From Sulfurimonas paralvinellae (GTDB taxonomy: Bacteria > Campylobacterota > Campylobacteria > Campylobacterales > Sulfurimonadaceae), in contig NZ_CP041406.1 in NCBI RefSeq assembly GCF_014905135.1, forward strand, positions 1,178,001 through 1,242,000: DNA of 64,000 nt, written 5' to 3'. Under the pieces are notes generated by a model, which was not told the DNA's origin, searched no databases, and saw only the letters and a program-made list of their open reading frames with translations. The position numbers and the translations under genes were made by a program. Positions within the stretch are counted from its first letter, which is position 1, and the number at the start of each line of letters is the position of its first letter. Positions 5,029-49,645 of the stretch are shown here, piece after piece.

Positions 5029-5030
5029 AC

Positions 5031-8551: not shown

Positions 8552-8577
8552 AAAATAGCTCCCAAAGGAACTATTTT
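8552..8577 (-). terminator. Rho-independent terminator of sorAB
   Basis: The 11-bp arms 8552 to 8562 and 8567 to 8577 pair, with one G-U, around a 4-nt loop. On the minus strand the stem is followed by a T-rich stretch. The stem includes the sorB stop codon. Confidence 0.55.
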
Positions 8578-8879: not shown

Positions 8880-8888
8880 TTTTTTTCC

Positions 8889-10085: not shown

Positions 10086-10119
10086 TAAGTTTTCCTTATA
10101 TTTTATAAATATGAGATTT

Positions 10120-10125
10120 ATTATA
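10120..10125 (-). promoter_or_regulatory. -10 element of the sorAB promoter
   Basis: A perfect TATAAT on the minus strand, 35 bp before the SorA ATG, is the clearest promoter element in this gap. No good -35 is visible, which is common in Campylobacterota. Confidence 0.5.
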
Positions 10126-10156
10126 TCTACCTATTTTTAAAGCTACGTAAATAATA

Positions 10157-11470
10157 TTATTTCGCTCGATAATATGTGCCTACTTTAGGATTCGTTACAA
10201 TACCTTGAGTAGAAATAAACCGTATCGGCAAACTTCTTGTTTTTAATTTATCTGTTGCTTTAAATACAGCGAAGTGTAGATGTGGACCACTTGTATAACC
10301 TGTATTTCCAGAGTATCCAAGTGGATATCCCCGCTCTACTTTTTCTCCTGTATGAACTAAAACTCCCCTCTTCTTAAGATGATAATAGGTACCAAAAGTT
10401 CCATCACTGTGCAGAATAGTTACATAGTTACCATATTTTGCAAATGCTTTGGCAAAGCCATGCTTGTCTGAATTATCTTTTGTCTTGACAACTACTCCTC
10501 CACGTGCGGCATATATCTTCGTCCCGACATCCATCATAAAATCTACTGCATACTGAGAATGCCCCTTATGCGTACTTTTACCATTAAATCCTTGTGAGAC
10601 CATATGTGATTGACCGATAGCGTAAGGTAATCTGTAAAGATAATTATTATCATGCCTTGCATCCTTTGAACCCAATATCCACCGATAACTTACAGCATAT
10701 TGTGCAAACGGAGCCTTGAAATAATATCGTGCATATCGCACGGTACTGTCTGCCCCAAGTACAAAAAGATCTTCTTTATACTTTACTGCCTTAATATTTT
10801 TATTTTTTGATTTTACTTGCAAAGTCACGTCATAGAGATTTTTGTTCGTAAAAAAAATATCTGTATATTTCTTCGTTTTTTTAACACTTGCAAAAACATT
10901 TTTACTACTTTTTTTGTTGATTGTATGAGAGCTTAGTTGTGATGATTCTGTCTGATTAAAGAACTCTTCTGAAGACCTCTCAAGCAAATTCTCTTCTTTG
11001 ATAATTTTTTCTAAATAGTGATTTTGTTTTTTATACTTATGTTTTTGATAGTACTTTATAGACTGCTCACGCAAAGCTCTTGGTGAAAGAAGACCATCAA
11101 CTTCATGAGAAGTTAATGAAATAAATTTTTCAATATCATTATCCCGAATACTCTTTGTTATTTCAACACGAATCAAATGAACAATATAGTCATACTCTTT
11201 TTGCAGATTTCGTAACTTTTTCAGATATTCCAGCTTTTTCTGTCGAACATCACTTTTATCTACATTCATACCCTCACGCAGAAGATTTTGTGAATCTTGT
11301 ATATATTTTTTTACTTTTCCACTCAATACTTTACTGTCTGAAAAATATTGCAGCTCTTTAGAAGCCTTATAGAGTGGCGTTCCCATCGTATCAAAAGTCT
11401 TAGGGTATTGGGCTGCCTGTACTGCTGCAAATAGCAGAAAAATCAGCAGAAAATTTCTAAACAATATCAC
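10157..11470 (-). CDS. M23 family metallopeptidase (LytM-type)
   Basis: The 437-residue exported protein has a signal peptide (FLLIFLLFAAVQAAQ), a helical middle region (about 35 to 180) and a C-terminal LytM/M23 domain (about 320 to 425). Zinc ligands are visible in GHSQYAVDF (HxxxD) and HLHF, with the usual GNTGYTSGPHLHF context. It should cleave peptide cross-links in peptidoglycan, affecting growth, separation or cell shape. The likely start is GTG at 11470, overlapping the HIT gene stop, so the two are co-transcribed. One copy of the CTGCGTGAG motif lies in it at 11273. Confidence 0.85.
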   Translation of the reverse strand: MILFRNFLLIFLLFAAVQAAQYPKTFDTMGTPLYKASKELQYFSDSKVLSGKVKKYIQDSQNLLREGMNVDKSDVRQKKLEYLKKLRNLQKEYDYIVHLIRVEITKSIRDNDIEKFISLTSHEVDGLLSPRALREQSIKYYQKHKYKKQNHYLEKIIKEENLLERSSEEFFNQTESSQLSSHTINKKSSKNVFASVKKTKKYTDIFFTNKNLYDVTLQVKSKNKNIKAVKYKEDLFVLGADSTVRYARYYFKAPFAQYAVSYRWILGSKDARHDNNYLYRLPYAIGQSHMVSQGFNGKSTHKGHSQYAVDFMMDVGTKIYAARGGVVVKTKDNSDKHGFAKAFAKYGNYVTILHSDGTFGTYYHLKKRGVLVHTGEKVERGYPLGYSGNTGYTSGPHLHFAVFKATDKLKTRSLPIRFISTQGIVTNPKVGTYYRAK

Positions 11471-11960
11471 TTACATACTCAGGTATCATACTTTTTATCT
11501 TGTCATATATCTTCTCAAAATCAGTCGAGTATACCCGTGTTTCTCCAATGGATGTTATGAAGTTTGTATCTCTCTCCCAACGTGGAACCAGATGCATATG
11601 AATATGCTCGGCTATCCCCGCTCCGGCTGCAGCGCCAAGGTTCATGCCGATATTGACACCTTTTGCACCAAAACCTTCTTTTAAAAGCCGTACACCTTTT
11701 TGTGCCAGTGCAGACATATGCAGCCATGTCTCGCTTGACAGCTCTTCGAGTTTGTCCGTGTGTATATTTGGAATGATCATAAAATGTCCGGGAGTATACG
11801 GGTACTTGTTCATTACTATAAAACAGTGTTCATCTCGGTAAAGCACATGCAGCTTATCATCTTCTTCTGCGTGAGCGGCAATATAGCAAAACACACACCC
11901 TTCTATTTTTTCGTTTGTCACATACTCATCACGCCACGGTGCATATAAAATTTTATTCAT
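11457..11960 (-). CDS. HIT family nucleotide hydrolase or phosphorylase
   Basis: This histidine-triad protein has about 167 residues. The triad HIHMHLVPRW lies near residue 130. The N-terminal CVFC with a downstream His may form the zinc site found in the Ap4A-phosphorylase-like branch. FIVMNKYPYTPGHFMIIP is the usual substrate-pocket strand. HIT enzymes split nucleoside phosphates such as diadenosine polyphosphates or AMP-lysine. The ATG at 11960 is preferred because AGAGAAG precedes it; an ATG eight codons upstream lacks a site. The M23 peptidase gene overlaps its 3' end. Confidence 0.85.
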   Translation of the reverse strand: MNKILYAPWRDEYVTNEKIEGCVFCYIAAHAEEDDKLHVLYRDEHCFIVMNKYPYTPGHFMIIPNIHTDKLEELSSETWLHMSALAQKGVRLLKEGFGAKGVNIGMNLGAAAGAGIAEHIHMHLVPRWERDTNFITSIGETRVYSTDFEKIYDKIKSMIPEYVSDIV

Positions 11961-12004
11961 TTTCTTCTCTTTTATATTATTCATAAAAATTGTACAATAA
12001 AGTT

Positions 12005-13048
12005 ATGGATTTAACAACTTTTCTCATTATTGCCACTGTTATAAGTGTTTTTATCTTTGACTTTACAAACGGTTTTCATGACTCGGCAGATATGGTGGCA
12101 ACAGCCATAGCCTCACGTGCCATGCGCACAAGTACGGCCATAGCACTTGTCTCTATCTTTACATTCTTGGGACCACTTATTGCCGGACTTGCCGTGGCAG
12201 ATACTGTCGGAACATTTGTCAATATCTCCAATGCCCCTCTGCGTGATGCACAGGCACTTGTGATTGCCGCCCTTTTGGCAGCAGTCACTTACAATCTCAT
12301 AACATGGCGTTTTGGACTACCCTCCTCTTCATCCAACTCGCTTGCAGGCGGACTTGTCGGTGCAGGACTTTTCATTGTTGGAAATACTCAGATAAACTGG
12401 GGCATAGAAGCGATGCAGCATGGAGAACTGACAGGTGTTATGAAAGTGGTCGCAGGTCTCTTTGCCTCTCCTTTTTTGGGTTTTATCATCGGTTTTCTTA
12501 TTATGAAACTCATCTTTTTTGTCTTTAAGCGTTTTACCATGCAGATACGCCCTCTTTTTGTCATTTCGCAATACTTCAGTGTCTCCTGGCTCGGCTTCTC
12601 TCATGGAGCAAACGATGCGCAGAAAGGAATGGCTATCATTGGAATGATGCTCTTAGCCTCCCATGAGACACAAACATTTACCATCCCTCTATGGGTCATT
12701 CTCATGTGTACAACAGCTATAACACTCGGAACGATGTTTGGCGGCTGGAGCATTATAAAAACACTCGGTTTTGAGCTTTATCATGTCAAGCTTATACACT
12801 CTGTCGCCAATCAGCTCGGAGCCGCTTTGGTAAACACACTTGCAACTGCCATTGGTGCACCGACATCAACGACACAGGTTGTGACTGCCACACTTTTAGG
12901 TAACGGAGCAGCCGAAAAACCCTCACATGTCGGATGGAAGCGTGCCGGAGAGATCATCCTCGGATGGCTTATCAATGTTCCTGTATCTATGGGGTTTGGT
13001 GCACTTTATTCCTACCTGTTAATAAAAATCTTAGGAGTTTTTTCATGA
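12005..13048 (+). CDS. PiT family inorganic phosphate transporter
   Basis: This integral membrane protein of about 347 residues has the two PiT signatures: FDFTNGFHDSADMVATAIAS near the N-terminus and FSHGANDAQKGMAIIGMM in the second half. These are the inverted repeats that form the phosphate path. It should import phosphate as a metal-phosphate complex with protons or sodium. An in-frame TTG at 11990 is possible, but the ATG at 12005 starts directly before the first helix. It overlaps the DUF47 gene by 4 nt, the usual partner arrangement for low-affinity phosphate uptake. Confidence 0.88.
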   Translation: MDLTTFLIIATVISVFIFDFTNGFHDSADMVATAIASRAMRTSTAIALVSIFTFLGPLIAGLAVADTVGTFVNISNAPLRDAQALVIAALLAAVTYNLITWRFGLPSSSSNSLAGGLVGAGLFIVGNTQINWGIEAMQHGELTGVMKVVAGLFASPFLGFIIGFLIMKLIFFVFKRFTMQIRPLFVISQYFSVSWLGFSHGANDAQKGMAIIGMMLLASHETQTFTIPLWVILMCTTAITLGTMFGGWSIIKTLGFELYHVKLIHSVANQLGAALVNTLATAIGAPTSTTQVVTATLLGNGAAEKPSHVGWKRAGEIILGWLINVPVSMGFGALYSYLLIKILGVFS

Positions 13049-13671
13049 TAACATCATTTATTAAAAAATACATCTTGCCAAAAGAGGTTGATTTTCTCTC
13101 AGCGCTCAATGAACACGCTATGACCATTAAAAAGATCACCGATGATCTGTACCGGTGCTTTTTAGAAAACGATGAAAAGAGCTGTGAAGCCATTTTACAA
13201 GATCAGCATAAAGCAAAAGAGATTCGTGACACCAATATGAAAGATCTTCTCGATACCTTCATCACGCCTTTTGACAGAGAGTCCATCTACCGTGTCATTA
13301 CGGAACTTGACTGGATCGCCATTAGTGTCCGGCACTTTGTCATTGAAGCAAGAGCCTACAATATTGTGCAACTCGATGATGATTATGCAGCTCTGATTAA
13401 AAAGATACAACTGCAAGCAGAACTGCTCACAGCCGGTTTTAAAACAGTAAAAAGTTCAGCAAAGAAGACAGCTGAAAATGCACAGAGAGTGCGTGATACC
13501 TATGATGAACTGATGGATACATATGTCTCTCGTATGGCAGCATTAGCACAATGTGAAGATACGCATAAAGTCTTTATTCACAGAGAACTTTTAGCACAGC
13601 TCAAAGAAATAAGTAAACGTATGCGTATGTGTGCCAACTCACTCGAAGATATCGTTATGAAAATGTCTTAA
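13045..13671 (+). CDS. DUF47/PhoU-like phosphate transport accessory protein
   Basis: This all-helical cytoplasmic protein of about 208 residues belongs to the DUF47/PhoU-like family, which modulates PiT transporters. The true start is the ATG at 13045, overlapping the PiT stop in an ATGA and preceded by TAGGAG; the longer frame upstream is only a read-in. Repeated four-helix elements are visible (ALNEHAMTIKKITDDLYRC and RELLAQLKEISKRMRMCANS). It ends 8 nt from the stop of the convergent TRAP gene, with no clear terminator between them. Confidence 0.85.
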   Translation: MITSFIKKYILPKEVDFLSALNEHAMTIKKITDDLYRCFLENDEKSCEAILQDQHKAKEIRDTNMKDLLDTFITPFDRESIYRVITELDWIAISVRHFVIEARAYNIVQLDDDYAALIKKIQLQAELLTAGFKTVKSSAKKTAENAQRVRDTYDELMDTYVSRMAALAQCEDTHKVFIHRELLAQLKEISKRMRMCANSLEDIVMKMS

Positions 13672-13679
13672 AAGTACTC

Positions 13680-14975
13680 TTAAATAAAGGCAAAGACAAG
13701 ATCAGGGAAAAGAATGACAAGGCCAAGACCTAAAAGCTGCAACAAAATAAATGGAATAATTCCTTTGTAGATATCCATGGTCGTGATGCTCTTACCGGCT
13801 GCACCTTTTAAGAAAAACAAAGAAAGTCCAAATGGAGGCGTCAAAAACGATGCCTGTAAGTTCATGGCTATAAGTACCGCAAACCAGATAGGATCGATTC
13901 CAAAAGCTTCCATGACAGGCACTAAGATAGGTACGATAATGAAACTTATCTCGATAAAGTCGATAAAAAATCCAAGTATGAAGATACTAAGCATCGCTAC
14001 ACCTATGAACACCCATACATTACCGATATCGTGAGAGAAAAACTCCAGTATAAGGTCAGTCCCTCCAAGCTCGTTAAAGACCAGACTAAATGCCGTAGCA
14101 CCGATAAGAATCATAAATATCATCCCAGAGAGCTTCATTGTCTCAAAGAGAGCATATTTTATCATTTCAAAATTGAGTGTTCTGTTTACTCCGGAGAGAA
14201 TGAGACCGCCGACAACACCAAAAGCCGCCGATTCAGTCGGAGATGCTATACCGGCAAAAATACTCCCAAGAACCGCCACCATTAAAAGCAATGGCGGGAT
14301 TATAGCTAGCAGCAGACCAATAATATTAACCTGCTCATCTGTTATGATTGCCGGGGCATCTTCTTTGTTTATGTACGCACGGATCATTATGTACGTTATG
14401 TAGAGTCCGACAAGTGTCAAACCCGGCAGAACGGCTCCCATAAAAAGCTCACCTACACTCACGCTCATAACATCACCAAGAACAATGAGAATGATAGAAG
14501 GCGGAATGATCTGCCCAAGTGTACCGCTTGCTGCGATAGTTCCCGATGCAAGCCCTTTGTTATAGCCGGCTTGGAGCATCAAAGGAAGTGCTATAACACT
14601 CATCATAACAACACTCGCTGAAACAATTCCTGTCGAAGCCGCAAGAATAGCACCAACTAAAACAACACTCACGCCAAGCCCGCCACGGACACCTTTAAAA
14701 AGTGAGCTCATAGACATCAGAAGTTTCTCTGCCATACCTGATTTTTCCAAGATGAGTCCCATCATGATGAAAAGCGGTACAGCCATCAGCGTGGTATTAC
14801 TCATAATGCCATAGATACGAAACGGCAGAATGTTAAAGACTTCAAATCCGACATCTGGAGTGAAGAATGCAAACATCATCGCTACACCGCCAAAAGCAAA
14901 GGCGACAGGCACTCCAAAAAGAAGCAGTAAAAGAGCGACTGCGAACATAACCAGAGCTATCACAGTTCTCTCCAT
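13680..14975 (-). CDS. dctM: TRAP transporter large membrane subunit (DctM)
   Basis: This 431-residue polytopic protein has the DctM arrangement of 11 to 12 helices. Family segments include GASGTLGQIIPPSIILIVLGD-like motifs (here AASGTLGQIIPPSIILI) and the C-terminal NLQASFLTPPFGLSLFFLKG. It uses a sodium or proton gradient to import a solute delivered by a periplasmic DctP protein. DctP is not encoded in the window, so the substrate is open; carboxylates are the commonest cargo. Its start overlaps the end of the DctQ gene by 16 nt. Confidence 0.9.
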   Translation of the reverse strand: MERTVIALVMFAVALLLLLFGVPVAFAFGGVAMMFAFFTPDVGFEVFNILPFRIYGIMSNTTLMAVPLFIMMGLILEKSGMAEKLLMSMSSLFKGVRGGLGVSVVLVGAILAASTGIVSASVVMMSVIALPLMLQAGYNKGLASGTIAASGTLGQIIPPSIILIVLGDVMSVSVGELFMGAVLPGLTLVGLYITYIMIRAYINKEDAPAIITDEQVNIIGLLLAIIPPLLLMVAVLGSIFAGIASPTESAAFGVVGGLILSGVNRTLNFEMIKYALFETMKLSGMIFMILIGATAFSLVFNELGGTDLILEFFSHDIGNVWVFIGVAMLSIFILGFFIDFIEISFIIVPILVPVMEAFGIDPIWFAVLIAMNLQASFLTPPFGLSLFFLKGAAGKSITTMDIYKGIIPFILLQLLGLGLVILFPDLVFAFI

Positions 14976-15445
14976 CTTTTTATGTCACTTAAGAGCTCTT
15001 TAAAAGCCTGCAATGCTAAAAGCATAAAAGCAAGAGGCATCAAAGACTTGACTATCCAACGGTATTTCAACCCTCCCGGATCACTTGAAGCCTCATGCTG
15101 CACATAACTGAGTTCCACAAAACCGATACCGATATAGATTATTAAAAAAGAGAGCGGCAGTACAAAAAGAACAAATGAAAGTATATTGATAAGTGCTTTT
15201 GTTTTCTCTGAGAATCTGTCATAAAAGATATCGACACGGACATGGGCATTGTTTCGTAATGTATAGGCAATACTCAAGAGTATCACAACATCAAAGAAAT
15301 GCCATTCCAACTCCTGCAGAGCCGTTGAACCTTCAGAGAAAAGATAACGGCTTGTTGCATCAAAAACAACCAGAATTACTAAAAGTGCTAATATCACTGC
15401 TGTTAAATATGCCACATATTTTGTAATACCGTCTATAAATTTCAC
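14960..15445 (-). CDS. dctQ: TRAP transporter small membrane subunit (DctQ)
   Basis: The 161-residue protein has four membrane helices in the DctQ pattern. The conserved DATSRYLF follows helix 1 (LTAVILALLVILVVF), then ELEWHFFDVVILLSIAYTLR and HVRVDIFYDRFS. It partners the DctM channel. It lies 14 nt downstream of the DUF4105 gene in the same direction, so both TRAP genes may be read from that promoter, or from one within it. Confidence 0.88.
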   Translation of the reverse strand: MKFIDGITKYVAYLTAVILALLVILVVFDATSRYLFSEGSTALQELEWHFFDVVILLSIAYTLRNNAHVRVDIFYDRFSEKTKALINILSFVLFVLPLSFLIIYIGIGFVELSYVQHEASSDPGGLKYRWIVKSLMPLAFMLLALQAFKELLSDIKRWREL

Positions 15446-15459
15446 TCAAAGTCCTCTTT

Positions 15460-17259
15460 TTAAAAATAATACTTCAACATCAACCTAAAGATCTGCTCAT
15501 CTCTTGTAATGTTTTTGGATATTTTATCTTTATAATCGTATTTTAGCACTATTTGCTTATTTTGAGATATTCTATAACCCTGTGCAGCTTTTATAAGCAG
15601 TTGTTTATCACCGCTGTCATATACTCTTTGAGTAAATTCTACATTGGTGTTAAAATCTTTATATTTATCTATTTTTGCACCTATACTTCCACCGACACCT
15701 GCATGAAAACTACTGTTTTGGTAGAGTATGGGATCAACCATTCCATAGAAAAAACCGATATCATTTCCCCAGGAAAAACCGGCACCGACACTCAGCCCAA
15801 ATGTAGGATCTTGCGTGAGGTAGTCATTATCCCAGCCAATCTTAGTTCGCCACGAAAAATTCTTAAAAAAAAGACTTCTTTGAGCAATCGAAACAATGGA
15901 AATAATAGTTGCTTCTTCGATTTTTGTCTCTTTTTTTGAAGTTGATGCCAACAGGTTCATAAACTCTATCTGTGTACCCCGTAAAAATCCGTAACTACTA
16001 TCTTGGAGATCATGATATGCCGGACGAATACCCAGATAACCAATAAAGTCACCATCTTTAACACCCAGACCAAACTGTGCACGAACAGCTCTATGCCCGT
16101 CAATTGGATTTGGCGGAGTTTTAATATCCAAAGGTTTGGTTATACCAAGTTTTGCACGCTCTGACGTCATTTTATGAAAAAGTTCAAGATAAGTATCTTT
16201 TTTAATCTTCCCACGGCTGTATTGATATTCCAAATACTCCACGCCGCTCTCTAAAATATAGCGCTTTTGATCGATACTGATTGTTTCATCACTCTGAATA
16301 TCTTCTGCTTTTTTATCTCCCTCAACAAGTTCTATGGGCAGTTCCTTATATTTCTCATCCAACAGTATCTCATACTTAAGAAGTTTTGTTCGTTTTGACG
16401 GTCTGTAGTTCTCCTGTGTAACAATTCCTGCTTGTTTTACGACATGAACCGTCTCCAATGGAATAACCTGATAGACAAAATGATCTCTTAAATGGAGTGT
16501 CGGTCGGGCAGCTTCAAGCAGCCAGAGCATATTGTAAGAGCAATTTTCCGTAAAGAAGTAGTAATAAGAATTTGTACCATTTAATTCCCAGATATGACGA
16601 AACATACGCACTGTCTCTTCTTGCGTAAGATTAAGATCATACTCCCATATATCACGCTGCTCGCTGTCACGGTACTCTTTGAGCTTTTCATAATATGGAA
16701 GAAGCGAATATCTGCCGTAATAACCGCCTACAAGACCTTTAATGGCAAAGACAACACCATTTTCAGTCTCGGTATTTGCATTGGCAGCATAATTGACAGC
16801 ATAAGATAGTAGTTTAGAATTGTAAGAGGAGTTGATTCTTAAAAAAGTATGCCCGAACATAGAAGCCGGAGAGTTGATGTGAGCGGCCGGAAAGACCATC
16901 GTTGTCGATTTAGGATCTACTCTTGCAAAGATTTTATCATACTCTTTACATATGGCTGTTGGAAAATCATCTGCCTGCAGCTGCTCTTTCAGCCAAGCAT
17001 ATCGTGCCGGAAATTTACAGATACTGGAGTTGTCATCTTTGACTTCATCAGAAAAAAATGCATCAAGCGTTGCTGCAAGTTCATGTTCAGGATTATTCTT
17101 TCCATCTTTTGCAAAGAAAAAATTTGGATCGTCTATCTCACTCTCATCATCGTTTGTATGAAGTAAAATATGCCAGTAGTGTTTTTTTGAGAGTTCAAGT
17201 TTTTGAGCTTTATTTTTATAATTTTGAACACTGTTTGCACAGAGAAGTGTTGTACTCAA
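15460..17259 (-). CDS. DUF4105 periplasmic/outer-membrane protein
   Basis: This protein of about 600 residues has the DUF4105 (Lnb-like) core: STTMVFPAAHINSPASMFGH, then TFLRINSSYNSKLLSYAVNY and ENCSYNMLWLLEAARP. A C-terminal half rich in alternating strands (RAQFGLGVKDGDFIGYLGIR and on to a final LMLKYYF) suggests a small outer-membrane barrel. DUF4105 is thought to be a cysteine/histidine papain-like domain of unknown substrate. The first standard start, TTG at 17259, truncates the signal peptide. In-frame codons back to an ATT at 17292 restore a good one (NSFLRIVFILLSTTLLCANS) and AAGG stands upstream of it. The start is therefore uncertain. Confidence 0.82.
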   Translation of the reverse strand: MSTTLLCANSVQNYKNKAQKLELSKKHYWHILLHTNDDESEIDDPNFFFAKDGKNNPEHELAATLDAFFSDEVKDDNSSICKFPARYAWLKEQLQADDFPTAICKEYDKIFARVDPKSTTMVFPAAHINSPASMFGHTFLRINSSYNSKLLSYAVNYAANANTETENGVVFAIKGLVGGYYGRYSLLPYYEKLKEYRDSEQRDIWEYDLNLTQEETVRMFRHIWELNGTNSYYYFFTENCSYNMLWLLEAARPTLHLRDHFVYQVIPLETVHVVKQAGIVTQENYRPSKRTKLLKYEILLDEKYKELPIELVEGDKKAEDIQSDETISIDQKRYILESGVEYLEYQYSRGKIKKDTYLELFHKMTSERAKLGITKPLDIKTPPNPIDGHRAVRAQFGLGVKDGDFIGYLGIRPAYHDLQDSSYGFLRGTQIEFMNLLASTSKKETKIEEATIISIVSIAQRSLFFKNFSWRTKIGWDNDYLTQDPTFGLSVGAGFSWGNDIGFFYGMVDPILYQNSSFHAGVGGSIGAKIDKYKDFNTNVEFTQRVYDSGDKQLLIKAAQGYRISQNKQIVLKYDYKDKISKNITRDEQIFRLMLKYYF

Positions 17260-41068: not shown

Positions 41069-42955
41069 ATGTTTCTCTTTGATACACTCTCTGTAGTTTT
41101 TGTTGCACTCATCATACTTGGTGCAGTTCCAAATCTTTTTTACTCTAGCGGATATCTGCCGCATATTGAGAGAAAAGCATACTACCAACTCCACTATTTT
41201 GCTTTTATACTCTCAATGATAGGTGTTGTCATCAGTGCCAATTCGCTCGTATTTCTCTTCTTTTGGGAGATTATGAGTCTTAGCTCATGGCAGCTTATTT
41301 TAACAGAACCAAAAGAGAAAAGTACCATAGAAGCTGCCCGTTTTTACTTTTTAATGACACACTTCGGTTTTGTTTTTTTACTCCTTTTCTTTTTAATTGT
41401 GACAAACGGTGACCTTGAGATTAGTTTTGCCCAGATGAAAAGCATTGCTGCAACATTTGCCTACCCGACCATGCTCTTTTTCTTCTTGATCTTAGGCTTT
41501 TTAAGCAAGGCCGGTGCCGTGCCTGTACATGTCTGGCTTCCTTATGCCCATCCTGCAGCACCCAGCCCGGTTTCAGCTCTTATGAGCGGCGTAATGCTCA
41601 AAGTCGCCATCTATGGAATGTTTCGCTTTTTATTTGATGTACTCTACCCTTGGCCGCTGCAATGGGGAACATTCATTCTCATTATTGGCTCTGTTACTGC
41701 TCTAGTAGGCATTCTTTATGCCATGGCAGAGCGTGACATCAAAGCGCTTTTGGCAAACTCTTCTATAGAAAATATCGGCATCATTTTAATTGCTTTTGGA
41801 ATGGGAATGATTTTTGATACTTTGGGGCTTACCATTTTAAGCACCTTCTCTTTTATAGCGGCAATTTTTCATATCTTTAACCATATGGGCTTTAAATCAC
41901 TACTCTTTATGGGCGCAGGTTCCATTTTACACCAAACACATACAAAAGATTTGGAAAAATTTGGCGGACTTATTAAAGCTATGCCTGTGACCGCCTTCAC
42001 CTTTTTGTTTGCTGCTATGAGCATCACCGCCCTGCCGCCGACCAATGGTTTTTTAAGCGAATGGATGATTTTTCAGTCCATCCTCAGCTCTAGCAGCATC
42101 GCAGATGCCATGACATTGAAACTTGCGCTTCCTTTTGCACTCTTCGCTCTTGCTATGACAGGGGGATTGGCAATTGCAACTTTTGTCAAAGCCTACGGTA
42201 TCACCTTTTTAGGTCTGCATAGAAGCACCAATGCCAAACATGCAAAAGAGGTAAATTTTTTAATGAAAAGCGGCATGGTGCTTATGGCACTTTTTATCGC
42301 ATCTCTTATGCTTTTTGCTCCACAGTATCTGCACTTTTTTGATAAACTCATGGTTAGTTTAGGAAAAAACTCTGTCTATGCACAGATCTTTCCAAATGGA
42401 TCTTTACAGATGCACTCACTTGGTGTCAATGGCGGTGTTGTCTCTCCACTCATTCTTTTTGCGGTACTTGTAGCGGTAACATCACTGTTGCTCTTTGCCT
42501 ATAAAGTATCTGGCGTTCGAACACAAGTGCATAGAACGTGGGCGTGCGGTTATAAAACTTCAGCGAAAATACAGTATACCGCCACAGGCTTTTCAGGCGT
42601 TATGAGAAGATTTTTCAACTGGTTATACAAGCCGCAGGAGCATGTAAGCAAACAAAACCTTGCAGGACATGAGACGAAATTTTCTGATGCAAGCTATGAA
42701 GTGCGTATTAAGCCGCTTTTTGAAGTTTTTATCTATGGAAATATAAAAAAATGGACTAACATTACAAGCTACTGGGTCTATCGTCTGGCACATTTTGAGC
42801 AGACACGCTACCCTGCCATGATATTTAACCTGATGCTCTTTATTCTCTACAGTTACAGAATCTTTACTCATGAGCTGGACTGGCAGAGTATTCTCATAGA
42901 GATGGCTTTGATGCTGATGTCACTCAAAATCTTAGTAATAGGAGAAAAAAAGTAA
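41069..42955 (+). CDS. HyfB/NuoL-like antiporter subunit, copy 1
   Basis: This membrane protein of about 628 residues belongs to the Mrp/NuoL family. It keeps the pumping residues: Glu in FFWEIMSL, Lys in SALMSGVMLKVAIYGMFRF and Lys in FNHMGFKSLLFMGAGS. The C-terminal third (TWACGYKTSAKIQYTATGFS) is the HyfB/HycC-type extension, unlike classic NuoL. The ATG at 41069 is chosen because the second copy starts at the same place (MFVFDT). An in-frame TTG at 41057 is an alternative. It is first of seven genes for a hydrogenase-4-related complex and should move protons or sodium. Confidence 0.85.
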   Translation: MFLFDTLSVVFVALIILGAVPNLFYSSGYLPHIERKAYYQLHYFAFILSMIGVVISANSLVFLFFWEIMSLSSWQLILTEPKEKSTIEAARFYFLMTHFGFVFLLLFFLIVTNGDLEISFAQMKSIAATFAYPTMLFFFLILGFLSKAGAVPVHVWLPYAHPAAPSPVSALMSGVMLKVAIYGMFRFLFDVLYPWPLQWGTFILIIGSVTALVGILYAMAERDIKALLANSSIENIGIILIAFGMGMIFDTLGLTILSTFSFIAAIFHIFNHMGFKSLLFMGAGSILHQTHTKDLEKFGGLIKAMPVTAFTFLFAAMSITALPPTNGFLSEWMIFQSILSSSSIADAMTLKLALPFALFALAMTGGLAIATFVKAYGITFLGLHRSTNAKHAKEVNFLMKSGMVLMALFIASLMLFAPQYLHFFDKLMVSLGKNSVYAQIFPNGSLQMHSLGVNGGVVSPLILFAVLVAVTSLLLFAYKVSGVRTQVHRTWACGYKTSAKIQYTATGFSGVMRRFFNWLYKPQEHVSKQNLAGHETKFSDASYEVRIKPLFEVFIYGNIKKWTNITSYWVYRLAHFEQTRYPAMIFNLMLFILYSYRIFTHELDWQSILIEMALMLMSLKILVIGEKK

Positions 42956-44839
42956 ATGTTTGTTTTTGATACACTCTCTTTGGTTTTTGTCGCACTCATT
43001 TTACTAGGCGCAGTTCCAAATATTTTTTATTCAAGCGGATATCTGCCCCATATTGAGAGAAAAGCACACTACCAGTTGCACTATTTTGCATTTATCATCT
43101 CTATGCTCGGTGTTGTTGTCAGTGCGAATGCCCTTGTGTTCCTCTTTTTTTGGGAGCTGATGAGTCTCACTTCCTGGCAGCTTATTTTAACCGAGACAAA
43201 AGAGAAAGCCACCATCAAAGCAGCACGTTTTTATTTTATTATGACGCATTTCGGATTTCTCTTTTTACTGCTCTTCTTTCTCATTGTCACCGATGGAGAT
43301 TTGGAAATGAGTTTTGCGAGTATGAAGCTTATCGCCTCACATTTTGCCTATCCAACCCTGCTCTTTTTCTTTTTGGTTCTTGGATTTTTAAGCAAAGCAG
43401 GAGCTGTCCCTCTACATGTGTGGCTGCCATATGCCCATCCGCAGGCACCAAGTCCGGTCTCCGCACTTATGAGCGGTGTCATGCTCAAAGTTGCCATCTA
43501 TGGAATGTTTCGCTTTTTATTTGATGTGCTCTACCCTTGGCCGCTTGAATGGGGCATTGTAATCTTAACAATTGGAGCGCTCTCTTCACTTGTAGGTGTT
43601 TTATATGCCTTGAGTGAGCATGATATCAAAGCACTTTTGGCAAACCACTCTATTGAAAATATCGGCATCATTCTCATTGGTTTTGGCATGGGTATGATAT
43701 TTGACACATTGGGTCTGCATACACTCAGTACCTTTGCTTTCATCGCAGCACTCTTTCATACTTTCAACCACATGAGTTTTAAATCACTGCTCTTTATGGG
43801 TGCAGGTTCGGTGCTGCATCAAACCCATACAAAAAATATGGAAAAATATGGCGGACTTATAAAGACAATGCCCATTACCGCACTGACCTTTCTTATAGCA
43901 GCCGTCTCTATCTCCGCTCTTCCGCCAAGTAACGGTTTTTTAAGTGAATGGATGATATTTCAATCAATGCTCAGCTCATCACATATTGACAATATCTCTT
44001 TAAAACTGGCCATCCCTTTTGCCATCTTCGCTCTGGCTATGACCGGTGGCCTGGCGATTGCCTGTTTTGTAAAAGCCTATGGCATCACCTTTTTAGGTCT
44101 GCACAGAAGCACCAATGCAAAGCATGCCCACGAAGTCAATTTCCTTATGAAAAGCGGTATGATACTGATGACCTTTGTCGTACTCTCTTTGATGCTTTTT
44201 ACACCCTACTATATGGAGTACTTTGACAAAGTCTTTGTCGGGCTTGGCCGTGCCTCCATCTATGCAGATATTTTTCCTGAAGGTATATGGCATATGCACT
44301 CAGTCGGCATGAACGGCGGTATTGTTTCACCGCTTATTTTACTCTTTTCACTTGTAGGTGTTACCGCTTTTATGATGTTTGCATACAAAGTTTTCGGTGT
44401 AAAAACACGTCTGCACAACTCCTGGGCCTGCGGCTACAAAACATCACAAAAAACACAGTACTCGGCAACCGGATTTGCAGGACCGATACGCAGATTTTTT
44501 ACTTGGCTCTATAAACCTGATGAGCACTTTGAAAAACAGACAATTGCAGGTCACGAGACAAAATTTGACGCTTCACATTATGAAGTGCATGTAAAACCGC
44601 TCTTTGAAAAAATCTTTTATATCAATGTTGCAAAAGCGGTCAACTATATAAGCTACTGGGTCTATCGTCTCTCACACTTTGAACAAACACGCTATGCTGC
44701 GATGATATTCAACATTATGCTTGTTGTACTTTTTAGTTACAGAATCTTTTCACATGAATTTTCATGGGCAACTTTTGTCTTGGAGTTTTTCGTCATGATG
44801 ATTTCTGTCAAAATTTTAATTATTGGAGATAAAAAATGA
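42956..44839 (+). CDS. HyfB/NuoL-like antiporter subunit, copy 2
   Basis: The 627-residue protein is closely similar to the preceding gene product over its full length, roughly four residues in five by eye. This indicates a tandem duplication. The same Glu (FFWELMSL) and Lys residues (GVMLKVAIYG and MSFKSLLFMG) are kept, so both copies look able to pump ions. The ATG abuts the upstream stop. Two antiporter-type subunits of this class in one complex would raise the ions moved per electron pair. Its stop overlaps the HyfC-like start by 4 nt. Confidence 0.85.
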   Translation: MFVFDTLSLVFVALILLGAVPNIFYSSGYLPHIERKAHYQLHYFAFIISMLGVVVSANALVFLFFWELMSLTSWQLILTETKEKATIKAARFYFIMTHFGFLFLLLFFLIVTDGDLEMSFASMKLIASHFAYPTLLFFFLVLGFLSKAGAVPLHVWLPYAHPQAPSPVSALMSGVMLKVAIYGMFRFLFDVLYPWPLEWGIVILTIGALSSLVGVLYALSEHDIKALLANHSIENIGIILIGFGMGMIFDTLGLHTLSTFAFIAALFHTFNHMSFKSLLFMGAGSVLHQTHTKNMEKYGGLIKTMPITALTFLIAAVSISALPPSNGFLSEWMIFQSMLSSSHIDNISLKLAIPFAIFALAMTGGLAIACFVKAYGITFLGLHRSTNAKHAHEVNFLMKSGMILMTFVVLSLMLFTPYYMEYFDKVFVGLGRASIYADIFPEGIWHMHSVGMNGGIVSPLILLFSLVGVTAFMMFAYKVFGVKTRLHNSWACGYKTSQKTQYSATGFAGPIRRFFTWLYKPDEHFEKQTIAGHETKFDASHYEVHVKPLFEKIFYINVAKAVNYISYWVYRLSHFEQTRYAAMIFNIMLVVLFSYRIFSHEFSWATFVLEFFVMMISVKILIIGDKK

Positions 44840-45756
44840 TTATATATATTGTAAGTATTATTTTATTGGTGCTCATCTCACCTCTCTTACTCTCATACAT
44901 CAAAGCAACAAAGATGGTACTGCTTTTTAAACGCCCTATTTCCATTTTTCAAGGCTACAGAAACTTTTCAAAGCTCATGCATAAAGAGACAATCATCTCA
45001 GAAGAGACAAGTGCCATTACAAAATATGCACCTTTTTTGGTTCTCGCGCCTCTCATTGTTGTCATGTTTTTTCTTCCGCCTTTAGTTCATGGTAGCTACT
45101 ATGTAAGCTTTGTAGATGCTTTTACCATTACAGGGCTCATTTCGCTCTCAACATTTTTTTTAATGCTTCTAGGACTTGACAGTGCAAGTGCTTTTGGCGG
45201 CATGGGAAGCTCACGTGAGGCTTTTATCTCTGCTCTCGTTGAACCGGCTATGGTGCTTACGATCTTTTCTGTTTCACTCATGGCGGGTAATTTAGGAGTC
45301 GGACAGGCAGGTGTCAATCTCGCAGAGCACTTTCCAAAAGAGCATATGGCGAGTTTTCTTTTTGCTGCTATTAGTTTCTTTATCCTGCTCATCGCTGAAA
45401 ATGGGCGTATTCCCGTTGATAATCCGGAGACTCACCTGGAGCTTACAATGGTGCATGAGGCGATGATACTTGACCTGACCGGTGTCTATCTAGCCATTAT
45501 TGAAACAGCAGCTTCTATCAAATTTGTTATCTTTGCTTCACTTTTTGCTTCACTTTTTATGCCTTTTGGTTTAGAATTTGCAGCGCCGATTGCATTTTTG
45601 ATATTTATTGCCAAACTCTTTTTAATAGCAACAGTTGTTGCCTTACTCGAAGTAAATACCGCAAAACTGCGTCTCTTTAAGATACCAAATCTTTTAGGAC
45701 TCTCTATAGTATTTGCCTTTTTATCTTTAATTACATTTTATGTTTTAGGAGCGTAA
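44836..45756 (+). CDS. HyfC/NuoH-like membrane subunit
   Basis: The 306-residue, eight-helix protein corresponds to NuoH/HyfC, the membrane anchor that couples electron transfer to ion movement. Conserved sites are EPAMVLTIFSVSLMAG and ENGRIPVDNPETHLELTM, the loop facing the soluble arm. It overlaps the upstream HyfB-like gene and is 2 nt before HyfE. The length and motifs are normal for group 4 complexes. Confidence 0.85.
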   Translation: MIIYIVSIILLVLISPLLLSYIKATKMVLLFKRPISIFQGYRNFSKLMHKETIISEETSAITKYAPFLVLAPLIVVMFFLPPLVHGSYYVSFVDAFTITGLISLSTFFLMLLGLDSASAFGGMGSSREAFISALVEPAMVLTIFSVSLMAGNLGVGQAGVNLAEHFPKEHMASFLFAAISFFILLIAENGRIPVDNPETHLELTMVHEAMILDLTGVYLAIIETAASIKFVIFASLFASLFMPFGLEFAAPIAFLIFIAKLFLIATVVALLEVNTAKLRLFKIPNLLGLSIVFAFLSLITFYVLGA

Positions 45757-45758
45757 GT

Positions 45759-46352
45759 ATGGTTGATTTTCTTATTGGACTTTTTTTAGCCTCCCTTATT
45801 GTCGCCCTCTTTACCACACGGCTCTATCGACTGCTGCTGTGGTACTCAATGAACTCTTTAATGTTGGGTCTGCTGGCACTCATTATAGGGAAAAATCTGG
45901 ATGATGATGCCATGATTATAACAGGTATCATAACCATTGTTGTCAAAGCGATTGCTATTCCTTATATTCTTAAAAATTTAAGTCAAAAATTTCATTTTAT
46001 ACGCCAAATAACACCGGAGATAAAAGTGCAGTATGCCATTATGCTCGTTCCGGCCATCCTGGTTTTCACCTTTTACCTCTCAGAGCCTATCACCCATATG
46101 ATAAATACCAATGCCAACTATGTTGCAGTAAGCATCTCTTCCTTATTTTTATCCCTTTTATTAATGATGGAGCATAAAAATGTTGCACCAAAAATCGTAG
46201 GATTTCTAAGTATGGAAAATGCTCTCTTTTTACTGGGAATTACAGCAACGAACGGTATGCCGATGCTCGTAGAACTTGGTATCTTTTTCGATCTGCTCAT
46301 GGCTATTGTCGTCATCAACCTTCTATTTCATAAAGAGGAGCTCAAAGTATGA
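45759..46352 (+). CDS. HyfE/NuoK-like membrane subunit
   Basis: The 197-residue protein has about six hydrophobic helices and the HyfE layout: NuoK-like helices in the middle, with lysines and histidines (IVVKAIAIPYILKNLSQKFHF) characteristic of hydrogenase-4 subunits. It is presumed to be part of the ion path between HyfC and the antiporter subunits. It overlaps the HyfF-like gene by 4 nt. Sequence conservation in this family is modest, so the call leans on position. Confidence 0.8.
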   Translation: MVDFLIGLFLASLIVALFTTRLYRLLLWYSMNSLMLGLLALIIGKNLDDDAMIITGIITIVVKAIAIPYILKNLSQKFHFIRQITPEIKVQYAIMLVPAILVFTFYLSEPITHMINTNANYVAVSISSLFLSLLLMMEHKNVAPKIVGFLSMENALFLLGITATNGMPMLVELGIFFDLLMAIVVINLLFHKEELKV

Positions 46353-47764
46353 ATCTTACCCTTTTACTGCTGCCTGCCATCATCATGTTTGGTGTCAGCT
46401 TTTTTAAAAATGACAAAGCAAAATATCTACTTGCCTTTACATCCTTTGTCATTTTAGGACCAATTATTGAGCTTTTCTTACTTCCAAAACCTTATAATAT
46501 TTTAGGGAGTTATCTTGTTGCAGACAAGCTTGACACCTATGTTCTTCTCGTCTCTTCCATTGTCGGTATCGGTGTAACACTGGCACTTTTAACACTTGAA
46601 AAACATGTCAAGGTCTCCCCCAAAGCCTACAGAAAATTTTACAGATTTTTCGCTATTTTTTGGATTGGGCTTATCTTCTCCATTCTCTCAAATCATATGG
46701 GAATCTACTGGATAGGGCTTGAACTCGCAACACTCTCAACCGTCTATATGATCAAGACCAACTATACACCGGCTGCACATAAAGAAGCATGGAACTATAT
46801 GATAGTCGGTGCTATCGCCGTTTCACTCATACTCTTTGGTATCATCCTCATGTATGCTAGTGCCAAGCCGATCTTGGGTGAAGATGCAATGCAGTTCGAT
46901 TTGCTTCTGGCTCACGCAAAAGAGATACCATCGCCTTTTCTTTTTGAGATGGGCTTTGCCATTGCAACGATAGGTATGTTTGTTAAGATGGGATTTTTTC
47001 CAATGAACCTGTGGCTTGCAAATATTGAGCGGGCCTCTTTTTATCCTGTTGCAGCACTTTTTAGCGGTATTTTAGAATCAGCTGTCATTGTCGGTTTTTT
47101 TAGATTTTCAAAGATTGCAATGGAAGTCAATTATAATCATCTTTTTATCTTTGTATTTATCTATACACTGCTTACCATTTTCATAGTTGCTTTTTTAATT
47201 TTTCGTGCCAAAGATTTTATGCGGCTTTTTTCTCTCTCAGGCGTAGAGCACATGGCGCTTATTGTCATCTTCTGGGTAAGCGGTGCCCCATTTGCAGCCC
47301 TGCTTCACTTTGGAGCGCATGCCTTTTTAAAACCGGCTCTCTTTCTCTCAACCGGTGTGTTAGAGTCCAATGGAAAGTATAAAATAGCAGGAGCACTCAG
47401 AGGCTACAAAGGCATAAAGGGAACACTCTTTTGGTTCTTGGTATCACTCTTTTTACTTGCGATCATCTCTCTGCCGCCAAGTCCGATGTTCTTTAGTGAA
47501 CTCTATGGTTTTGGAGCGATGATAAGCACGGCAAAAGAGAGTAATCATATGCTTGCCATGATAGGTGCGATTCTCTTTTTACTTGCACTGCTCTCCATCA
47601 TCTTCTACCGTTTTGTAGCCATTTACCAGTCGATGAAGTATGAGGGTAAAGAAGAAGAAAAAACGGTATATTCAAGTGAGCTTTTTGCTCTTGTCATCTT
47701 TGCAATATCTTTGATGGCACTGCTACTTCCATCATCACTTGCATACCTAAAATCGATTGCGTGA
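46349..47764 (+). CDS. HyfF/NuoN-M-like antiporter subunit
   Basis: The 471-residue protein with about 14 helices belongs to the NuoM/N group. The key Glu is in GIYWIGLELATLSTVYMI and the key Lys in IGMFVKMGFFPMNLWLAN and HFGAHAFLKPALFLSTG. With the two HyfB copies it makes three antiporter-type subunits in the complex. It overlaps the HyfE gene by 4 nt, and an in-frame TTGCGTGAG (the 8-mer core) spans its end at 47758 to 47765. Confidence 0.85.
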   Translation: MNLTLLLLPAIIMFGVSFFKNDKAKYLLAFTSFVILGPIIELFLLPKPYNILGSYLVADKLDTYVLLVSSIVGIGVTLALLTLEKHVKVSPKAYRKFYRFFAIFWIGLIFSILSNHMGIYWIGLELATLSTVYMIKTNYTPAAHKEAWNYMIVGAIAVSLILFGIILMYASAKPILGEDAMQFDLLLAHAKEIPSPFLFEMGFAIATIGMFVKMGFFPMNLWLANIERASFYPVAALFSGILESAVIVGFFRFSKIAMEVNYNHLFIFVFIYTLLTIFIVAFLIFRAKDFMRLFSLSGVEHMALIVIFWVSGAPFAALLHFGAHAFLKPALFLSTGVLESNGKYKIAGALRGYKGIKGTLFWFLVSLFLLAIISLPPSPMFFSELYGFGAMISTAKESNHMLAMIGAILFLLALLSIIFYRFVAIYQSMKYEGKEEEKTVYSSELFALVIFAISLMALLLPSSLAYLKSIA

Positions 47765-47774
47765 GGAGGGAAAA

Positions 47775-49142
47775 ATGAGACTTATAGCACGTTACGCAAA
47801 AGAGTTACAAAATGATTTTGAAATTATCACAGTTTATGAAGAGACGATAGAAAAAGAGCTTGTTTCAAAAGAGCAGCCAAAGATTAAAACTTTAGCAAAA
47901 AAATACCCTGCAGCCATCTGGTTCGAGCGAAAAATGCATGATGATTTCGGCATTATCGTAGAAGATGCTTTTGACAAACGACCTTTGGTACAACAGGAAC
48001 GATTTCCTAAAGATATTCATCCTTTACGAAAAGATTTTACAAATACGCAACTTGAAGAAACGGAATATATTCCTTACAAATATGAAGCTATCAGCGGTGA
48101 TGGTGTCTTTCAAGTCGCCGTAGGTCCGATTCACGCAGGTATCATAGAACCGGGACACTTTCAGTTCTCTCAGGCAGGCGAAGATATGCTGCATCTTGAA
48201 GTACGCCATTTTTACAAAAATAGAGGCATCGAAAAGATGCTCGAAGGCAAAACCCTGCGTGAGGCAAAACCTGTCATAGAACGTACCAGCGGTAATGAGA
48301 GCATTGCTTATCAAATTTGCTGGCGTGATATCTATCTTCAGGCCTCACAACAGGAACTACCGCTTGCACTTAAAAAGCGACATGCACTTTTGCTTGAACT
48401 TGAACGTGTCATCCATCATCTTACAGATTTGGGATTTATTCCAAATGATGCAGGTTTTGGTGCAGCACTTGCCTATGGGTCAAAACTTGCAGAAGATGCC
48501 AGACGCAAGATGAAAGAGCTTACAGGGCACCGTTTTGGTTTTGGAGCCATTGACTTTGAAAACCACTTTATAGATACGGCTACATTTTCTGAGTGGCTGC
48601 ATGAGCTTGAGGAGAGCATAGAATTTTTCGAAGATTGGATTATGGACATACCTTCTCTTTGGGACAGATTTGATACAACAGGTATTTTAAGTCTCAAAAA
48701 AGCGCTCAAATACAACACTGTAGGCGTAGTAGCAAGAGCTTCGGGCCTCTCACTAGACAGAAGAATAAACAGCTTTTATCTTGAGCATGGTTTCATCATG
48801 GCAAGTGAGGTCAGCGGGGATGTTGGAGCACGATTTAAAGTACGCCTTCAAGAGGTAAAGAATTCTATCACGATGATGCAGCATTTTTTAGAAGAGGACA
48901 CTTCTACTTTAGAACTCTCTAGTATACATGATGGTTCTTATCACACGTTTACAGAGAGTTCCATTGGTGAACTTTTTATGGCAATTGACATCAAAGATGG
49001 CGTTATTGAGCGCTTTTTTGTAAGAGACCCAAGCTTTATGAATTGGCAGGCACTTCACCTTATGATGAGAAGTGACATCATCGCCGATTTTCCACTCATC
49101 AACAAAAGTTGTGATTTAAGTTATGCGGGGAATGATTTATGA
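47775..49142 (+). CDS. HyfG-like NuoCD fusion subunit lacking NiFe-binding cysteines
   Basis: This protein of about 455 residues joins a NuoC domain (FERKMHDDFGIIVEDAF and HPLRKDF) to a NuoD/hydrogenase large-subunit domain (GPIHAGIIEPGHFQFSQAGE). The two cysteine pairs that bind Ni-Fe are missing. Where hydrogenases have RxCGxC it reads ERTSGNESIAY near residue 170. The C-terminal DPCxxCxxR site reads NKSCDLSYAGNDL. It cannot be a hydrogenase and fits Ehr-like complexes. The ATG at 47775 has GAGGAGGG upstream; TTG at 47757 is less likely. The electron source is unknown. Confidence 0.85.
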   Translation: MRLIARYAKELQNDFEIITVYEETIEKELVSKEQPKIKTLAKKYPAAIWFERKMHDDFGIIVEDAFDKRPLVQQERFPKDIHPLRKDFTNTQLEETEYIPYKYEAISGDGVFQVAVGPIHAGIIEPGHFQFSQAGEDMLHLEVRHFYKNRGIEKMLEGKTLREAKPVIERTSGNESIAYQICWRDIYLQASQQELPLALKKRHALLLELERVIHHLTDLGFIPNDAGFGAALAYGSKLAEDARRKMKELTGHRFGFGAIDFENHFIDTATFSEWLHELEESIEFFEDWIMDIPSLWDRFDTTGILSLKKALKYNTVGVVARASGLSLDRRINSFYLEHGFIMASEVSGDVGARFKVRLQEVKNSITMMQHFLEEDTSTLELSSIHDGSYHTFTESSIGELFMAIDIKDGVIERFFVRDPSFMNWQALHLMMRSDIIADFPLINKSCDLSYAGNDL

Positions 49143-49645
49143 TTAAATTTTGGAACAAACGGGTAAAACATGGTGTTTTAACAGAAAATATTGAACTTGA
49201 CAGAGAACTTGAGAAAATCAAAAAAGAGATACAAGATAGTGTCAAGAAAAAATTTGCAGGCTCTTTGGCAATTCGGATGGTAGACAGCGGCAGCTGTAAT
49301 GCCTGTGAAGCGGAATGCAATGCGCTTGCTAATCCTTACTATGATCTTGAGCGTCTTGGTATCTACTTCGTAGCAAGTCCGCGTCACGCAGACGTCATGC
49401 TCTTAAGCGGCATCATGACCTTCAACATGACACCGCACGCAAAAGAAGCATATGAACAGATACCTGCACCAAAATGGGTAATAAGCTTAGGTGACTGCCC
49501 TGCTATGCAGGCCCCGTTTGAGAAAACCTACGCCATCAACGCACCGGCAGAAAACCACCTGCCAATCACCCACCACATAGCAGGCTGCCCGCCAAGTCCA
49601 CTTGAAATTATGCAAGGCTTACTGGAGTTTTTGCGAAAGATTTGA
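49139..49645 (+). CDS. HyfI/NuoB-like iron-sulfur small subunit
   Basis: The 168-residue protein carries the N2-type [4Fe-4S] cysteines in order: GSCNACE (Cys53 and Cys56), GDCP (Cys120) and GCPP (Cys150). The cluster should be intact although the partner has lost Ni-Fe ligands. It is the electron exit or entry point beside the quinone-like cavity formed with HyfG and HyfC. It overlaps HyfG by 4 nt and overlaps the convergent metal permease gene by 27 bp. No ferredoxin-like HyfA/HyfH gene is present. Confidence 0.88.
   Translation: MIKFWNKRVKHGVLTENIELDRELEKIKKEIQDSVKKKFAGSLAIRMVDSGSCNACEAECNALANPYYDLERLGIYFVASPRHADVMLLSGIMTFNMTPHAKEAYEQIPAPKWVISLGDCPAMQAPFEKTYAINAPAENHLPITHHIAGCPPSPLEIMQGLLEFLRKI

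Follow-up and report, generated by a model that had tools for sequence, protein, structure and literature searches.

Background

Energy-converting hydrogenase-related (Ehr) complexes have been orphans for about twenty years. They are known from Geobacter sulfurreducens (GSU0739-45), Nitrospira, the Candidate Phyla Radiation (CPR) and Riflemargulisbacteria, with their function unassigned in print as far as the published excerpts go on which we draw here and below. Here we analyse a 64,000-nucleotide stretch of the genome of Sulfurimonas paralvinellae (contig NZ_CP041406.1, positions 1,178,001 to 1,242,000 of the forward strand; hereafter the window) that carries, at positions 41069-49645, a seven-gene operon which we assign to Ehr. 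By its published description the Geobacter complex is alike, having a group-4-type large subunit without the NiFe cysteines and also small, NuoL-like and HyfE-like subunits. The Nitrospira Ehr was formerly called a putative formate hydrogenlyase, and a hyf-like operon (hyfBCEFGI) of vent Epsilonproteobacteria was read in 2014 as formate hydrogenlyase (PMC3958643), the excerpted text of which, unlike the present analysis, makes no mention of lost ligands. The operon of that report is most probably of the type found in the window, because the gene content hyfBCEFGI, the vent Campylobacterota hosts and the unrelated neighbourhoods match, and the 'hyc' operons of Nautilia may be the same system. 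In the literature searched we found no Campylobacterota operon named Ehr.

Compared with formate hydrogenlyase and hydrogenase-4 of E. coli (HycE), which have the NiFe ligands, ferredoxin subunits and a C-terminal extension, the complex of the window is without all three. With complex I it shares the families of the 49-, 30- and 20-kDa subunits, the antiporter and NuoH families and an Asp at the Asp139 position, but it lacks the Tyr87 and His38, the NADH module and the ferredoxin-type subunit of that enzyme. The NKS-type NiFe hydrogenases (13 rows of our alignment, nine from Bacillota and four, loci L102, L104, L133 and L139, from other groups) share the stretches HAG[IV]IEPGHF and DFPLxNKS with Ehr; they have the four cysteines (for example RICGAC and ELCYACLDR) and, in 13/13 rows, Gly at position 225.

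The operon of the window

The seven genes are co-directional, with gaps of 0-10 bases or overlaps, and the order that the first-pass annotation had given them, HyfB-HyfB-HyfC-HyfE-HyfF-HyfG-HyfI, was confirmed with Pfam and NCBIfam, the families being Proton_antipo_M (three times), NADHdh, a HyfE-like family, Complex1_30kDa with Complex1_49kDa, and Oxidored_q6:

41069..42955, + strand: HyfB-like antiporter subunit, copy 1 (628 aa)
42956..44839, + strand: HyfB-like antiporter subunit, copy 2 (627 aa, 75% identity to copy 1)
44836..45756, + strand: HyfC/NuoH-like membrane subunit (306 aa, PF00146)
45759..46352, + strand: HyfE-like membrane subunit (197 aa, NCBIfam NF008556 below the curated cut-off)
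46349..47764, + strand: HyfF-like antiporter subunit (471 aa)
47775..49142, + strand: EhrL/HyfG-like large subunit (455 aa, 30-kDa and 49-kDa domains, no NiFe ligands)
49139..49645, + strand: EhrS/HyfI-like small subunit (168 aa, [4Fe-4S] cysteines 53, 56, 120 and 150; no ferredoxin domain)

The HyfE-like protein scores 58 bits against an NCBIfam cut-off of 136 and has no Pfam match. The ATG at 47775 (455 aa) is a better start for the large subunit than the TTG at 47757, and the C-terminal end of this protein is NKSCDLSYAGNDL. GGAG precedes the ATG in six of the seven genes, with GGGGA before the small-subunit gene; promoter-like sites were no commoner than in shuffles (17 vs 20.2, sd 5.0), and terminator-like sites were somewhat commoner (12 vs 7.0, sd 2.3), neither kind serving here as evidence.

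No NADH module and, by Pfam, no family beyond the complex I-type ones occurs in the operon. The gene list and Pfam gave no HyfA/HyfH-type ferredoxin subunit among its genes and the six frames of the whole window hold no CxxCxxCxxxC motif, so that the reported lack of a ferredoxin subunit stands. The related remark that no electron donor is obvious holds for the operon and fails as a peculiarity of it, since among the other Ehr 29 of the 44 small subunits that we scored are likewise short and without a ferredoxin motif. A third Campylobacterota type of Ehr (L061 and L062, in genomes G194 and G228) has a small subunit with a ferredoxin-like N-terminal part that matches HycF.

The large subunit: lost ligands and the old pocket

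Among 397 genomes of the phylum we count 29 carriers of the operon, comprising 28 orthologues at E < 1e-160 and a contig-end fragment in G085 (59% identity); at 1e-20 there were matches in 125 of the 397 genomes, the weaker ones examined being other Ehr types, HyfG or NuoD. When EhrL is aligned to E. coli HycE all the NiFe cysteines prove to be replaced, the first CxxC by S172-G-N-E175 and the second by S449-Y-A-G452, as the first-pass annotation had recognised. The four cysteines are absent in 28/28 aligned Campylobacterota orthologues, and because Ser172, Ser449 and Gly452 are invariant in all of these a sequencing error is excluded as the cause of the replacement; at position 175 there is Glu in 27 of them and Asp in one. 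A PF00346 search of the genome returned NuoD and EhrL only, and the two observations that would have spoken for a hydrogenase, NiFe subunits elsewhere in the genome that replace HyfG and a close homologue that is an active hydrogenase, were sought by sequence and not found. All matches of the genome to PF00374, the NiFe hydrogenase large-subunit family, lie on its 50-kb second contig (G000 contig C2, 27810-32085), which shares a single 1.2-kb ATPase-gene match with a plasmid of Sulfurimonas aquatica.

The closest solved structure is E. coli HycE both by sequence (7z0s_E, 7.3e-58) and by model fold (TMq 0.85), and the profile scores are 199.5 bits for HycE, 108 for MbhL and 50 for the MBS large subunit. 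The structure model of the large subunit (pLDDT 82) is poor at the pocket loop (residues 94-146) and at the C-terminus (451-455), and the pocket geometry was therefore left unused. In the alignment Glu125, kept in 97/98 Ehr rows, corresponds to MbhL Glu21, which lies on the proton path and occupies the place of complex I His38 (PMC11228991), and Asp225 corresponds to complex I Asp139, the ion-pair partner of His38 (PMC8697550). Asp225 is present in 28/28 rows of the Campylobacterota clade, 61/68 other Ehr rows (second copies of L094 and L131 included) and 17/17 NuoD rows, and in 0/20 of the NiFe hydrogenase rows in our set.

Placement within Ehr

Gene content, motif and tree agree, and on this agreement the window operon is an Ehr complex belonging to a distinct Campylobacterota clade. 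Its large subunit is of the group-4 type without NiFe cysteines; the small subunit and the NuoL-like, HyfC, HyfE (by a match below the cut-off) and HyfF proteins are encoded in the same operon; and the 28 Campylobacterota large subunits form one clade with support 100, nested in Ehr, in a quick tree with SH-aLRT support only from which the ligand columns were left out. The phylogeny thus bears out the suggestion of the first-pass annotation that this is an Ehr and not a hydrogenase. The Ehr rows around it come from Nitrospira, CPR and other groups. The clade's neighbours are a second Ehr type (L045_5754, L065 and L066; support 81), found in G330 and two uncultured bacteria, and then rows from Nitrospira (95).

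The clade differs from other Ehr by a long stem (1.74 changes per column), by the motif SGNE where most others have SGD (Asn174 in 27/28 rows, vs Asp174 in 63/68), by Asp447 (28/28, vs Asn in 62/68), by a shorter HyfB and by Lys or Arg in HyfF, and the window also by its two HyfB copies. Thirteen rows have both the NKS motif and the full set of four cysteines: twelve of them fork beside Ehr (support 90, with the half-cysteine row L118 included), and the other, L102, branches at the base of the Ehr fork (83). Five Nitrospirota Ehr rows without Asp225 also branch early. This topology, in which not all forks are well supported, fits a history in which the metal ligands would have been lost first and Asp174 and Asp225 gained later.

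Ehr is widespread, there being at least 573 relatives of the query among the 588 pattern matches listed, NiFe-bearing kin included. The 80 wider loci that we used are the best 80 of the 573 and were found by the patterns HAG[IV]IEPG and DFPL[ICV]NKS, so that the conservation of these two stretches is partly by construction. The large subunit of Desulfosporosinus (L118), which stands among the four-cysteine rows, has two of the four NiFe cysteines (SGIC ... SYAC), a second and partial ligand loss, and another hydrogenase-like large subunit, with the motifs RICVPE and GICPPE, has one cysteine per motif (L171 and L172, in G330 and G060). Two loci are interrupted: in L045 (G330, 3233-14168) the large- and small-subunit genes of a first Ehr operon are separated by an entire second-type Ehr operon, and in L043 (G060, 10604-16010) an insert of about 5.5 kb between EhrL and EhrS encodes, as judged by Pfam, a dihaem cytochrome c / cytochrome b561 protein and an LTXXQ-type protein, besides a DHH-type protein and a two-component system that were recognised by eye.

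The small subunit and the membrane arm

The small subunit keeps all four [4Fe-4S] cysteines that had been reported for it (Cys53, 56, 120 and 150), and these are invariant in 29/29 aligned rows, of which 28 are of the clade and one is a second-type Ehr; they do not vary although the window's protein has 60-82% identity to those of the clade. Because these cysteines never vary, redox use of the complex is likely in this clade. The profile scores are 128/126 bits for MbhJ/HycG, vs 82 for the MBS small subunit.

In HyfB, Glu67, Lys147, Lys225, His272, Lys276 and Lys373 are kept in 26/26 clade rows, among which are both copies of the window and both of G128, and copy 1 of the window keeps the equivalents of all six residues of copy 2, with Ser at the place of His231. 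In HyfF, Glu125 and Lys213 are kept in the 27/27 clade rows that have a letter there and Lys328 in 28/28; position 421, which is Gly, Ala, Ser or Thr in 69/69 other rows, as in E. coli HyfF, is Lys or Arg in 27/28 clade rows and Arg in the window. Since the channel residues are kept, the ion-translocating apparatus looks functional by its conservation. The HyfB of the clade mostly starts some 70 residues later than that of other Ehr, as does copy 1 of the window. Ahead of the reference column stand 3 residues in 20/26 clade rows, vs a median of about 76 in the others and 76 in E. coli HyfB. The duplication of hyfB is unusual, in that 28 loci (the window and 27 others), seven of them too short upstream to score, gave one copy in 19 of the 21 evaluable and two copies in the window and G128; copy 1 of the window groups with one of the G128 copies (support 92).

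Distribution and the link to the reductive TCA cycle

ATP-citrate lyase is present in 28 of the 29 carriers and in 91 of the 368 non-carriers (Fisher p 4e-15), and a hand count by genus gives 15/15 vs 19/53 (p 8e-6), the genomes of a phylum not being independent. The set of genomes with this enzyme was cut at E < 1e-30 after the list had been seen, which kept 119 of 125 and dropped G206, G240, G255, G260, G291 and G376. In two genomes of one genus (G223 and G006) the operon lies inside a cluster of the tricarboxylic acid (TCA) cycle, with sucCD or sucD on one side and oorDABC on the other (identified by Pfam for OorD and OorB and by eye for the remaining genes). The Ehr genes of L076, a Nitrospirota locus, have about 1.7 kb upstream of them a gene that encodes 2-oxoacid:ferredoxin oxidoreductase beta-subunit domains. 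The genome of the window has an OorB (67% identity) elsewhere.

Within the window's genus the operon was found in 2 of 31 sampled genomes. In the window an SDR gene (fabI-like by eye) lies upstream of the operon and a znuB-like gene (also by eye) downstream, and in G325, of the same genus, these same two genes succeed one another at a distance of about 0.1 kb with no operon between them. This empty site was seen in one of ten congeners examined, other genes being there in the rest, and the operon of G128 lies about 1 Mb from its fabI-like gene. By its distribution the operon behaves as a cassette that may be gained or lost as a unit.

A conserved partner gene beside Ehr was judged unlikely, no shared electron-transfer gene having been seen in 110 loci (30 of the phylum and the 80 wider ones). 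In these loci FdhF, NuoE, NuoF and HycB gave no blastp match at 1e-10, and HycF gave matches in 16, of which 15 were small-subunit genes. The most widely shared neighbours, named by eye from the starts of the sequences, are kinases, sigma-54-like and small regulators, ABC-type proteins and stretches overlapping Ehr itself; CitE-like and folD-like neighbours, present in six loci each, appear to reflect synteny that related genomes have in common.

What the complex may do

We put forward, as a tentative reading that we hold at well short of even confidence, that the complex is an enzyme linked to ferredoxin and coupled to ions, which probably works in reverse to serve the reductive TCA cycle. 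The complex would be a membrane ion-translocating machine of the superfamily of complex I and the group-4 hydrogenases from which the NiFe site has gone. A low-potential one-electron carrier, most likely a soluble ferredoxin, would exchange electrons directly with the [4Fe-4S] cluster of the small subunit, and in the former NiFe pocket a proton-coupled step would take place on a small oxidant, most likely menaquinone. This step would be coupled through HyfC and HyfE to the movement of H+ (or Na+) in HyfB, HyfB and HyfF. In autotrophs with the reductive TCA cycle the machine would run mainly in reverse, spending ion-motive force on reduced ferredoxin for the 2-oxoglutarate and pyruvate synthases. 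Ion translocation is supported by the anatomy of the predicted complex, while we infer the ferredoxin partner, menaquinone as second substrate, the direction and the ion species. In favour of the proposal we count the invariant cluster cysteines, the kept channel residues of HyfB and HyfF, the co-occurrence with ATP-citrate lyase, the Oor genes beside Ehr at the loci named above, and Glu125 and Asp225 of the large subunit. For the 2M complex I of Nitrospira a reverse electron flow to ferredoxin, for 2-oxoglutarate and pyruvate:ferredoxin oxidoreductases, has been put forward (PMC6606698); in the excerpts on which we draw it is not proposed for Ehr. The Ehr of N. moscoviensis is reported not to be raised by H2 (PMC12342949), and this speaks against a hydrogenase.

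Several observations weigh against this proposal. Most genomes with strong ATP-citrate lyase matches (91 of 119) do without the operon; Oor genes lie near it in only 2 of the 27 other clade loci, both in one genus, and, apart from the OorB relative near the one Nitrospirota Ehr, no Oor was found in the other loci searched. NuoD over its cut-off is present in 22 of the 29 carriers and could do the same job. (The seven carriers with NuoD matches only below the curated cut-off, G006, G027, G038, G039, G085, G223 and G381, constitute family f5.) As to the pocket, the quinone ligands of complex I are absent, Tyr87 aligning with the invariant Gly173 and His38 with Ile124, and Asp225 is not specific to quinone enzymes, because MbhL, a hydrogenase, has Asp at that position. 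Furthermore, the conservation of the pocket does not need electrons, since the same residues are kept as well in ten relatives that have lost three or four of the cluster cysteines (see below) as in cluster-bearing Ehr. Finally, Ehr subunits of Geobacter are more abundant with formate (PMC7894505), which points to formate rather than to the reductive TCA cycle in that host.

The alternative that survives best, and that we regard as possible and nearly as likely as the ferredoxin-linked enzyme, is that of a redox-gated or redox-free ion transporter, a Mrp-like Na+/H+ exchanger with a fossil hydrogenase arm in which the cluster, here, would only sense or gate. One argument for it comes from relatives of the window's small subunit. 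We scored 85 small subunits, 28 from this clade, 44 from other Ehr and 13 encoded beside NKS hydrogenases. All four cluster cysteines are kept in 75, and ten of the 44 other Ehr have lost three or four of them, five keeping none and five keeping one (L081, L086, L092, L096, L101, L080, L094, L105, L120 and L122). These proteins are otherwise well aligned, with GDDAIDGG vs GDCAIDCG of Nitrospira L070 and PGDPP vs PGCPP, the replacements being mostly Asp and also Thr, Asn, Ser, Glu, Gly, Pro and Val, and the loss maps to at least three changes on the large-subunit tree. Their hosts are four candidate-phyla bacteria, a Methanosarcina, a Dehalococcoidales, a Micrarchaeota and three other bacteria, all of them metagenome-assembled or uncultured, and six of the ten draft genomes (G403-G406, G409 and G410) gave no PF01058 match other than the Ehr small subunit. 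Genes for ATP synthase are found no more than 1 kb from Ehr in L081, L105 and L084, the last with a small subunit of insufficient length for scoring; in L086 the distance is 0.9 kb for one such gene and about 4.8 kb for the others. We add that in L063 (G085, 9637-11999) some 8.6 kb separate ATP synthase genes from the contig-end fragment of the window-type Ehr. The literature searched holds no report of small-subunit cysteine loss, which goes unmentioned in the excerpted text of the CPR Ehr paper; that paper reports cysteine loss for its Ehr and nowhere uses the term 'ATP synthase'.

A transporter would also account for the intact channel residues of HyfB and HyfF, and a metagenome paper suggests that hyf genes of Nautiliales and Campylobacterales move protons for acid adaptation (PMC10696704). 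On the other hand, a purely structural role would not need four cysteines held invariant at the identities seen in this clade, and hardly any carrier is without ATP-citrate lyase. A view that would embrace both kinds of complex, and to which we give no more than about one chance in three or a little less, is that Ehr are ion transporters with optional electron turnover, derived from NiFe hydrogenases by loss of the ligands while the charge of the pocket and the channels were kept. The window's clade would then represent a stage at which one cluster serves as electron port or gate, whereas candidate-phyla, archaeal and other lineages, with three or four of its cysteines lost, would be members of the complex I superfamily without a recognised redox centre, some of them beside ATP synthase.

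Two enzymatic alternatives to the ferredoxin-linked enzyme are much less probable. An MBS/Mbx-type enzyme that reduces sulfur or polysulfide appears improbable: MBS belongs to the same superfamily, with 6u8y_L matched at 1.2e-12, but in the window's large subunit all four cysteines are lost, and the MBS scores given above for both subunits are the lowest. Many carriers presumably come from sulfur-rich habitats, which we count in its favour.

A formate-linked enzyme seems to us slightly less probable still, whether as formate hydrogenlyase-2 in the sense of the 2014 report or as a complex of formate dehydrogenase and Ehr such as has been hypothesised for other hosts, in Riflemargulisbacteria (PMC6349859). 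The gene order hyfB-C-E-F-G-I and the response of the Geobacter Ehr to formate speak for it, and a homologue of formate dehydrogenase H has been reported in the vent species (PMC3958643). Against it stand the NiFe ligands absent throughout the clade, the missing HyfA/HyfH and the scarcity of formate dehydrogenase itself, which exceeds the TIGR01591 cut-off in only 2 of the 29 carriers, 23 more having below-cut-off matches alone when all candidates were scored; in the two positive carriers a different frame, of the HyfG type and 581-586 aa long, is located 3.3-6.5 kb away from the gene. Among 11 candidates scored in the window genome none passes the cut-off of 666 bits, the two matches reaching 585 and 511, and the first is probably an assimilatory nitrate reductase, because a ferredoxin-nitrite-reductase-like gene adjoins it. 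Formate hydrogenlyase in particular is very unlikely, given the lost ligands and the lack of a formate dehydrogenase over the cut-off in 27/29 carriers.

HyfB, of the PF00361 antiporter superfamily to which the DabB partner also belongs, could recall a DAB-like complex for CO2 or bicarbonate uptake, the CO2-linked transporter envisaged by the first-pass annotation, but with no PF10070 (DabA) match in the genome and no further family in the operon a transporter of the DAB type finds no support and we give uptake of this kind hardly any credence.

Significance

New, as far as the literature searched goes, are the loss of the ligands in this clade, its signature residues, the link to the reductive TCA cycle, the weakness of the formate hydrogenlyase reading and the cluster-less relatives. 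The present analysis removes a misleading formate hydrogenlyase label from vent Campylobacterota and places Ehr in autotrophs with the reductive TCA cycle, some carriers among which we take to be culturable. It also yields predictions that can be addressed by point mutation (Glu125, Glu175, Asp225, Lys444 and the cluster cysteines). The cluster-less relatives, in turn, would serve as a natural experiment on whether ion movement by a complex I-like machine can do without redox chemistry.

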